Assembly (NCBI GenBank): GCA_020029545.1
Contig: JAIBJL010000003.1
Span: forward strand, 1 to 34,653
Source: Gammaproteobacteria bacterium
GTDB lineage: Bacteria; Pseudomonadota; Gammaproteobacteria; Steroidobacterales; Steroidobacteraceae
DNA length: 34,653 nt
Direction of reading: 5' to 3'
Shown here: in pieces, positions 17,277 to 19,950 of the stretch
Layout: every line of letters begins with the position of its first letter
Numbering within the stretch: position 1 is the first letter of the stretch
Notes under the pieces: generated by a model
Seen by the model: only the letters and a program-made list of their open reading frames with translations
Databases searched by the model: none
What the model was told of the DNA's origin: nothing
Made by a program: the position numbers and the translations under genes

Positions 17277-17681
17277 TCACGTCTCCCCACCCTTGCGCTT
17301 CTCCTCGTAGCGCACGACCGCCGCGCCACTGGTAACCGCAAGATCGCCTTCGACCAGCGCGCCTTGCGCCATGGCAATGCTGCGCGCGCTCACCGAACCG
17401 CGAATACGGGCGCTTTTGCGGATCTCGATTTTCTCGGCGATCATCAGTCCGCCGATCACCTCGCCGGCAATGATGGCGTTGCTCGCCTGCAGGCGACCTT
17501 CCCAGCGCGCACCCTCGGTCAGGGTGAACGAACCCTGCGCGATGCAGTCGCCGGTCACGCTGCCGGCGACGACGACATCGCCCTGACATTGCAGATCGCC
17601 GGTCATGATGGATCCCTGACCGATAAAAGTCGGACTGCCGAGGGCTTTGTCGGCGACGCGACGCCGCGGTGTGTCAGTCAT
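17277..17681 (-). CDS. Bactofilin (polymer-forming cytoskeletal protein)
   Basis: Start MTDTPRRRVADKALGSPTFIGQGSIMTGDLQCQGDVVVAGSVTGDCIAQGSFTLTEGARWEGRLQASNAIIAGEVIGGLMIAEKIEI; beta-helical repeat pattern. Confidence 0.88.
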   Translation of the reverse strand: MTDTPRRRVADKALGSPTFIGQGSIMTGDLQCQGDVVVAGSVTGDCIAQGSFTLTEGARWEGRLQASNAIIAGEVIGGLMIAEKIEIRKSARIRGSVSARSIAMAQGALVEGDLAVTSGAAVVRYEEKRKGGET

Positions 17682-17820: not shown

Positions 17821-18002
17821 AACCAACGAGGCTCCGCATAGCAGCCTGTCGGACCGACGAGACATGCTGCCTGCTCTCGCCCCGGCACTCGCTATGTCAC
17901 TTCCTGACGCAGCCCACCCGATCGGGTCGATAAGTGACCAGGCACGTCACCTCACCACGCCACTGCAATGGCCAACTTGTTGATTCAGTTGGGGCGGATC
18001 AT

Positions 18003-18018
18003 TGGCACATGCATTGCA
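18003..18018 (+). promoter_or_regulatory. Sigma54 (RpoN) -24/-12 promoter element
   Basis: TGGCACA-TGCA-TTGCA, exact fit to consensus TGGCAC-N5-TTGCW. Confidence 0.65.
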
Positions 18019-18028
18019 TTATCTGTTG

Positions 18029-18149
18029 CCAACGATCGACCGATCGCTCGCGGCAACGCGTAGGGGTCGACTCCGATCGCGCGTACCTCCCCCTTAAAAA
18101 GGTTCGCATCTCGCGCCGCCAGCGCCTTCCCGCTGGCGGCGTTTTTTTT
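18029..18149 (+). ncRNA. Candidate small RNA (~120 nt), RpoN-driven
   Basis: Lies between the sigma54 element and a strong intrinsic terminator; 5' GTTGCC...GGCAAC inverted repeat; unpaired-looking ACCTCCCCC stretch; no convincing ORF. Confidence 0.5.
18114..18149 (+). terminator. Strong Rho-independent terminator
   Basis: CGCCGCCAGCG-CCTTCC-CGCTGGCGGCG-TTTTTTTT; perfect 11-bp stem followed by 8 T. Confidence 0.9.
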
Positions 18150-18215: not shown

Positions 18216-18545
18216 ATGCGCAATCCCGTCTCGATCCTTGCCGGTCTGCTGCTCGCGATGCTCGTCACCGCGATGCCGGTCGTGGCCGATGAATCCATGC
18301 GCTGCGGTACCTGGATTGTTACCAGCGAAGCCACCGTTGCAGAGCTGGTCCAGAAGTGCGGCGAACCTGCGAGCAAGGAGGTCTCGACTGCCGACGTCTA
18401 TGCCAAGGGACCCCAGGCGAATCAGACCCGCAAAGTCGGCGTCACCACGACCGAACGCTGGACTTACGATCGCGGACCGCAGGCCTTTCGCATGATCGCC
18501 ACCATCGTCGACGGCAAACTCAACAGTATCGATCGGGCCAAGTGA
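18216..18545 (+). CDS. DUF2845-like secreted protein
   Basis: 109 aa with signal peptide; MRCGTWIVTSEATVAELVQKCGEPASKE...ERWTYDRGPQAFRMIATIVDGKLNSI. Confidence 0.8.
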   Translation: MRNPVSILAGLLLAMLVTAMPVVADESMRCGTWIVTSEATVAELVQKCGEPASKEVSTADVYAKGPQANQTRKVGVTTTERWTYDRGPQAFRMIATIVDGKLNSIDRAK

Positions 18546-18606: not shown

Positions 18607-19950
18607 ATGAGACGAATCACGGCGACCGTCGTCGGCCTGCTTTGTTTGTCTGCGGCCACGACCTACGCCGCCGAGCCGGCCGCATCGGCCAAAGACATCA
18701 CTGCCGTCACGCTCGCCAACGGCATGCAGATTCTGACCTGGCCGGATCGCGACATCCCGAACGTTGCGCTGTACAACTTTGTGCGTGTCGGCAGCCGCAA
18801 CGAAGCGCCCGGCATCACCGGCCTGGCGCATTTCTTCGAGCACATGATGTTCAACGGCACCAGCACGCGCGCGCAGGGCGACTTCGACCGCACGCTGGAA
18901 GCCAATGGCGCTCGCAACAACGCCAGCACCTCGAACGATCTGACGATCTACATGGATTGGCTGCCCAAGGCGGCGCTGGAAACCGTATTTGCTGTCGAGG
19001 CCGATCGCCTGCAGAACCTGGCCTTCGAACCGAAGGTGGTGGAAAGCGAGCGCGGCGTGGTGTATTCGGAACGCCGGACAAGTGTCGATGACAATCCGTC
19101 GGCGCGCTTGTCGGAACAGGTGCAAGCCACCGCGTTTCTGGCTCATCCCTACGGCATTCCGACCATCGGCTGGCCATCGGACATCGAGTCGTGGCAGATC
19201 AGCGACCTGAAGGAGTTTTTCCAGCGCAACTACGCGCCGAACAACTGCACCATGGTACTGGTCGGCGATCTCGACCCGCAGGCGACGCTCGCGTTGGCAC
19301 GCAAGTACTTTGAAGCCATTCCCCGCCGCGCAGGTCCGAAGGCCGTGGTCACGAAAGAGCCGCCGCAAACTGGCGAACGTCGCGTGGCATTACAGGCGGA
19401 GGCGCAGACCCCGCTGGTGCAATTCGCGTATCGCGGCATAGCGAGCAACGATCCACGGTCTGCGGCGCTTGAACTGCTGTTGCGAATCCTGGCTGATGGC
19501 GATGCATCGCGGCTGCATCGAGCGCTGGTCGAGGAACAGCAGCTCGCGATTTCCGCCGATGGCTACTTGCAGTCGGGATTCGACCCCGGATTGATCTGGT
19601 TCTCATTGTCGTTGCCGGCGCAGGGAGACACGACGGCTGCCGAAAGCGCCTTCGATCGCGAAATCGAGCGGGTGCGCAAGGATGGCGTGACGGCGGCCGA
19701 GCTGTCGAGGGCGCGCAATCAGGCATTGGCGGACTTCTGGCGCGGTCAGGCCACGATCGATGGCAAAGCGGAAGCGCTCGGCACTTATGCCGTGCTGCGC
19801 GGCGGATACGAGAAATTATTTGCCGCGCCCCGCGCCTACGAAGCGGTCAGCGTTGCCGACATCCAGTCGCTGGCCAACGATCTGTTGCACAAATCGCTGC
19901 GCACCGTCGGCGTGCTGACGGCAGTCGCCAGCCAGGAAGCGCAGCCATGA
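18607..19950 (+). CDS. M16 family zinc metallopeptidase, catalytically competent subunit
   Basis: 447 aa; inverted zinc motif HFFEH in GLAHFFEHMMFNGT and downstream Glu; signal peptide. Confidence 0.93.
   Translation: MRRITATVVGLLCLSAATTYAAEPAASAKDITAVTLANGMQILTWPDRDIPNVALYNFVRVGSRNEAPGITGLAHFFEHMMFNGTSTRAQGDFDRTLEANGARNNASTSNDLTIYMDWLPKAALETVFAVEADRLQNLAFEPKVVESERGVVYSERRTSVDDNPSARLSEQVQATAFLAHPYGIPTIGWPSDIESWQISDLKEFFQRNYAPNNCTMVLVGDLDPQATLALARKYFEAIPRRAGPKAVVTKEPPQTGERRVALQAEAQTPLVQFAYRGIASNDPRSAALELLLRILADGDASRLHRALVEEQQLAISADGYLQSGFDPGLIWFSLSLPAQGDTTAAESAFDREIERVRKDGVTAAELSRARNQALADFWRGQATIDGKAEALGTYAVLRGGYEKLFAAPRAYEAVSVADIQSLANDLLHKSLRTVGVLTAVASQEAQP

Follow-up and report, generated by a model that had tools for sequence, protein, structure and literature searches.

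Sigma54 (RpoN) is known to transcribe enhancer-dependent small RNAs (sRNAs), CrcZ, NrsZ and Qrr being examples, and in Escherichia coli the activator GlrR (QseF) drives the sigma54 sRNA GlmY. RepG of Helicobacter uses the C/U-rich loop of its terminator as a seed, and in ar14 and the anti-Shine-Dalgarno (anti-SD) sRNAs of alphaproteobacteria a GC-rich terminator comes after a C-rich stretch that resembles an anti-SD sequence. In Xanthomonas, sX13 is reported to form stem-loops with apical C-rich loops (4C/5C), for which G-rich mRNA motifs near start codons are the proposed targets, with pilus genes among those repressed (PMC3771888).

The locus considered here lies at 18003-18149 of the window, i.e., the whole analysed stretch of 34,653 nucleotides. 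It is likened to sX13 in its C-rich apical loops, and differs from it in having a sigma54/enhancer promoter and a second C-loop that is the terminator itself. With GlmY of Enterobacteriaceae it has in common a short RNA, a sigma54 promoter, an upstream palindrome and an IHF-like site, but the enhancer palindrome of GlmY is different (TGT-N12-ACA). The best sub-threshold Rfam match was ar14 (RF02344; E 0.0054, 25.4 bits vs. a gathering score of 58.8), similar in its layout of C-rich stretch and terminator, a score that is no evidence of homology; ar14, atoC and Spot 42, all below the cut-off, were judged to reflect chance or a C-rich/terminator resemblance. No Rfam family, the GlmY model included, was matched at gathering level in the window or in 16 related loci; the initial annotation had not recognised the RNA and had proposed this search. 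The Rfam scans gave no hit to sX13, and none at gathering level to RepG, CrcZ, NrsZ or Qrr, in the loci scanned. Among publications on sigma54/RpoN sRNAs with C-rich loops or bactofilin, as judged by their listings, this RNA was not found described, and those on PilR and sRNAs, mostly in the form of titles and abstract openings, gave no PilR-controlled sRNA. As far as these searches go, the locus represents an sRNA family that had no name before; its general kind is known (enhancer-dependent sRNAs, C-loop sRNAs), and its switching between sRNA and mRNA forms is unusual.

Organisation of the locus and its predicted transcript

The features of the locus and its neighbours are collected in Table 1. 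The textbook -24/-12 element reported in the initial annotation is the single match in the window to the pattern TGGCAYRNNNNTTGCW (-24 GG / -12 GC). With one mismatch tolerated, chance would yield 1.63 matches per window, so that a lone site is no proof by itself and conservation has to decide. The transcription start site was placed at about 18029, 12 nt past the C of the -12 element. For the predicted RNA (18028-18149) the folding energy is -57.7 kcal/mol, with a z score of -4.72 against shuffled sequences; the RNA ends in the perfect 11-bp stem and eight T residues noticed at the outset. No plus-strand open reading frame (ORF) of at least 20 aa lies wholly within the predicted transcript, as had been anticipated, and the listed plus-strand ORFs begin upstream of the start site or at the terminator end.

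Table 1. Positions of the predicted elements of the locus and of the adjacent genes in the window
Feature	Position	Strand	Basis or remark
Bactofilin gene, divergent neighbour	17280..17681	-	PF04519, E 4.2e-21
Enhancer-like palindrome TGACCAGGCACGTCA (TGAC-N7-GTCA), putative PilR site	17935..17949		Pattern match
IHF-like site CAACTTGTTGATT (YAANNNNYTGATW)	17973..17985		30 nt before promoter
Sigma54 -24/-12 promoter TGGCACATGCATTGCA	18003..18018	+	Pattern match; relatives keep TGGCAYNNNNNTTGCW
5' part of RNA, variable, foldable	18029..18080	+	Starts at predicted start site; sequence not conserved
Hairpin 1, GCG-U-ACCU / AGGU-U-CGC, loop CCCCCUUAAAA	18081..18107	+	Minimum free energy fold, R2 match
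Intrinsic terminator, 11-bp stem (arms 18114-18124 / 18131-18141), loop CCUUCC, T8 (18142-18149)	18114..18149	+	Fold
DUF2845 gene, beyond terminator	18216..18545	+	PF11006
M16 peptidase gene	18607..19950	+	PF00675/PF05193

Two structural proposals of the initial annotation stood in part. The GUUGCC/GGCAAC stem assigned to the 5' end (18025-18030 with 18052-18057) would begin ahead of the predicted start site, and therefore cannot be counted on as belonging to the RNA. The anti-SD-like stretch ACCUCCCCC is present at 18085-18093, within hairpin 1; the feature kept in relatives is a C-rich hairpin loop, closer to the C-rich loops of sX13 than to a linear anti-SD sequence. As modelled, the functional unit is likely to be the hairpin at 18081-18107 with its C-run in the loop, rather than a free single-stranded CCUCCCCC, and the anti-SD idea is thus refined, not proved.

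Conservation among relatives

A BLAST search with a 161-nt query gave matches in 11 of 60 genomes, the window's own among them, and in all ten non-self relatives TGGCAYNNNNNTTGCW is followed by hairpins and then by a terminator whose loop is C-rich. A covariance analysis in relatives had been suggested, and a model built on eight of them, the window excluded (R1), recovered the window in its own whole genome (E 8.8e-9). R1 was positive in 11/14 genomes of the genus (own included), in 42/200 of the family and in 4/196 of the order sample, each of these four from the same family. A second model (R2), restricted to the RNA core without promoter and built on 14 sequences with the window among them, aligns to the window at 18081-18149; it was positive in 94 of 217 family genomes, representing 18 of 25 genera, and found nothing in the other 123. 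On the class sample, R2 was positive in 11/369 genomes, namely the window's own, a strong one (G501, locus L238), which lies outside the family and has both promoter and bactofilin, and nine weak ones; the latter, mostly without promoter and C-loops, were taken as chance terminators. A degenerate pattern scan of genome contigs proved too loose, with scattered taxa among the matches listed: of its 19 source loci, sixteen were searched with R1 (the others being the window, L008 and L011), and only L031 matched, weakly and partially.

Over 88 loci R2 gave 96 matches. A sigma54 element lies within 260 nt upstream of 44 of the 45 matches scoring at least 50 bits, against a background of 10/3811 other stretches of the same loci (0.26%), and accompanies 15 of the 51 rows below 50 bits. 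The hairpins are also kept. The loop of hairpin 1 is ACUUCCCC or ACCUCCCC in most relatives; in genus g18, where many of the RNAs measure about 75 nt and are built of two hairpins, hairpin 1 reads GCGAACA-ACUUCCCC-GUGUUCGC and the terminator loop AUUUCCCCC or similar. When 35 members with promoter support, window included, were aligned with MAFFT (A6), CCCC occurred in the hairpin-1 loop of all 35 and 27 had a C-rich terminator loop; 7 of 16 predicted pairs show pairing-preserving changes on both sides. The model-fitted alignment A4 gave two-sided pair-keeping changes in 18/18 pairs, beyond 500 shuffles, a count that leans toward structure because weak R2 rows are included and the alignment is fitted to the model, A6 being the less biased check.

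Gene neighbourhoods were compared over 43 distinct loci, L161 and L163 counting as one place. Bactofilin stands on the upstream side in 38 of them, and an M16 peptidase gene occurs within the fetched stretch in 19; in loci L130-L139 the peptidase is present in 10/10, a downstream conservation within the genus. The initial annotation had also raised the alternative that the RNA is a mere leader of the downstream DUF2845 gene, which is unlikely in the window because the terminator is strong and downstream genes vary among relatives; moreover, no DUF2845 match was found beside the sRNA in relatives' loci, which argues against a leader role. Promoter, palindrome, IHF-like site, C-loop hairpin and terminator are co-conserved across genera while the downstream genes change, and sequence comparison thus supports the original proposal that 18003-18149 is a conserved sigma54-dependent sRNA gene.

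Other loci met in the searches have related traits. L171 and L173 (G070 and G086, genus g16) carry a sigma54-like TGGCACAGGCATTGCA, then ACUCCCCCCU and a terminator; no bactofilin is nearby, and no TGAC-N7-GTCA palindrome occurs within the 200 nt inspected. The palindrome-promoter loci L295-L300 of genus g6, except L298, encode an RNA whose long stem carries a loop very rich in C (such as CUUCCCCCCC...), with no clear T-run. In L218 (G658, same class) a two-hairpin unit with C-rich loops is repeated four times in tandem on the minus strand, at 897-1781, and the same stretch has four sigmaE-like GGAACYT-N-GTCTNA elements; C-loop sRNAs controlled by envelope stress may be arrayed here.

Upstream sites and candidate activators

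The enhancer-like palindrome and the IHF-like site are additions to the initial annotation. TGAC-N7-GTCA was found in 54 of 59 upstream regions (the next-commonest palindrome in 18; shuffled sequences 0.27%), at 68-81 nt from the promoter in 49 of the 54. An IHF-like match accompanies it in 46/54 palindrome-bearing loci and sits 30-32 nt ahead of the promoter in 41/54 (shuffles 0.8%). Searched as a pattern, the palindrome followed after 48-78 nt by the promoter occurred in 93 of the 217 family genomes, mostly as a single copy, as compared with 1 genome for the reversed control.

The window's genome has one rpoN and six sigma54-activator domains (PF00158), which from their sequences we read as NtrC, a GlrR homolog, NtrX and three others; PilR is not among the six in this assembly (91% complete, 619 contigs). 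NtrX is without the sigma54 loop and was rejected. Over nine genomes compared, the sigma54-type activators common to all five sRNA-positive ones are two, NtrC and GlrR; NtrC was set aside, being also in every sRNA-negative genome tested. PilR, for which NCBIfam gave no match bearing that name and which we name from the adjacent pilA and from its C-terminus, is present in four of the five positive genomes (G007, G022, G121, G026) and also in the negative G009, G027 and G111. Seven 19.5-kb regions round pilR contain pilin genes in four regions, five genes in all, and TGAC-N7-GTCA precedes 4/5 of the pilA sigma54 promoters in pilR regions, at a distance of 125-135 nt in three cases and 222 nt in G027. 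Two palindromes stand ahead of pilA in G033 (L309), and in G121 and G033 the palindrome sits directly between pilR and pilA. Since the palindrome of the sRNA loci also precedes pilA sigma54 promoters beside pilR, PilR is favoured and is likely, on this sequence evidence, to be the activator of first choice, with GlrR as its rival. The P. aeruginosa PilR site, described as TGT-N11-AGA plus GTCT elements (PMC6058289), is unlike the TGAC-N7-GTCA palindrome.

That GlrR (QseF) activates the same sRNA, which would make the gene a functional counterpart of GlmY, appears unlikely on balance. GlrR orthologs occur in 5/5 sRNA-positive genomes tested, as only NtrC does likewise, and are missing from the negative G024 and G111; the homolog of the window's genome, for which GlrR is the best NCBIfam match, below cut-off, is 57% identical to E. 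coli GlrR, and E. coli glmY is laid out alike, with a palindrome, an IHF-like TAACTCATTGATT and a sigma54 promoter. However, the E. coli GlrR/QseF sites are described as being of the type TGT-N12-ACA (PMC6075780) and not TGAC-N7-GTCA, although the recognition helices of the two proteins are nearly the same, and it is this difference in the known site that keeps GlrR a rival only; TGTC-N10-GACA, which is of the TGT-N12-ACA type, is not among the 40 most frequent upstream palindromes. Also against GlrR, the protein is found in the sRNA-negative G009 and G027, and the homolog of the window's genome reads DAFPGA in place of GAFTGA. This difference in the sigma54-contact loop (L348, G000:C144; GAFTGA in G007 and G009) may be either a real change or a sequence error.

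Coding variants of the locus and possible functions

In several genera the promoter and the C-loop hairpins are separated by an ORF of about 72-96 codons (L230, L231 and L245 in g6, L234 in g17), an arrangement also found in L228 and L242 (g24; by eye) and in L243 (G012, of the window's genus). In these loci the hairpins form the 3' UTR of the small ORF, so that a mere terminator or stability role is possible there. The small protein gave no significant Pfam or NCBIfam match (four sequences tested), keeps F-R, I-D and GYE residues across ten sequences, and is encoded by 5 of 14 genomes of the genus, the window's not among them; in G002, G007 and G013 the ORF stands behind a second promoter copy at another place. 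At L311-L316, L228, L230, L231, L234 and L243, a promoter of this type stands ahead of the gene for this undescribed protein, which is about 72-96 aa long and has the pattern FRRGxPIxDP...GYExE. We tentatively propose, at somewhat less than even confidence, that one PilR/sigma54-controlled RNA element occurs both as the 3' UTR of the mRNA encoding this protein, in some genera, and in others as a free C-loop sRNA of about 75-150 nt, where the ORF would have been lost or have moved behind a promoter copy of its own.

The same coding variants (g6, g17, g24 and G012, with promoter, ORF and hairpins in this order), together with the lack of conservation in the 5' part of the window RNA, would also suit a locus that does not act in trans, either a relic promoter and terminator or the leader/3' UTR remnant of a lost small coding gene, devoid of present regulatory function. 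We consider this improbable: the forms without ORF keep the C-loop and stems in many species, down to about 75 nt in L148, one of the shortest relatives, in which the 5' part is almost missing; promoter, palindrome and IHF-like site are kept at fixed spacing; and the terminator stays while downstream genes vary.

The reading we favour, with moderate confidence, is that of a stand-alone sRNA gene driven by sigma54 and an NtrC-type activator, most likely PilR, whose C-loops pair with G-rich mRNA starts. The activator, most likely this type IV pilus regulator, would bind the palindrome, IHF would bend the DNA, and sigma54 RNA polymerase would start near 18029 and transcribe about 120 nt, as far as 18149. 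If sX13 is a guide, messenger RNAs are the probable partners of the C-rich loops, which would pair with G-rich stretches round start codons or Shine-Dalgarno sequences and mostly lower the translation of several mRNAs. The bactofilin mRNA, with the start region GGGGAAAA in the window, was dropped as a target because its GGGG is not kept in L134, L136, L137 and L138.

The C-rich loops could instead titrate a protein or another RNA, as a sponge. The presence of two similar loops in each RNA, which recalls decoy RNAs, would agree with such a role, and the sRNA loop motif UUUCCCC also occurs in pilA leaders of G121 and G026 (L391 and L392), possibly by chance; nevertheless, neither the pilA leaders of G009 and G027 nor the second pilA of G121 have this motif, and no protein binding the C-loop motif was identified, so that we regard titration as rather improbable compared with the pairing of the C-loops with mRNAs.

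PilR has been studied as a transcription factor for pilin. With a C-loop RNA acting on several mRNAs, PilS-PilR signalling would gain a post-transcriptional arm, and pilus sensing would reach many mRNAs via one short C-loop RNA. If the tentative two-form proposal is true, the element itself would be the post-transcriptional arm of the pilus regulator, and its variants would constitute a natural series of steps linking an mRNA 3' UTR and a stand-alone sRNA. The swapping of an sRNA gene and a coding gene behind one conserved enhancer-dependent promoter is thus open to testing in this family.
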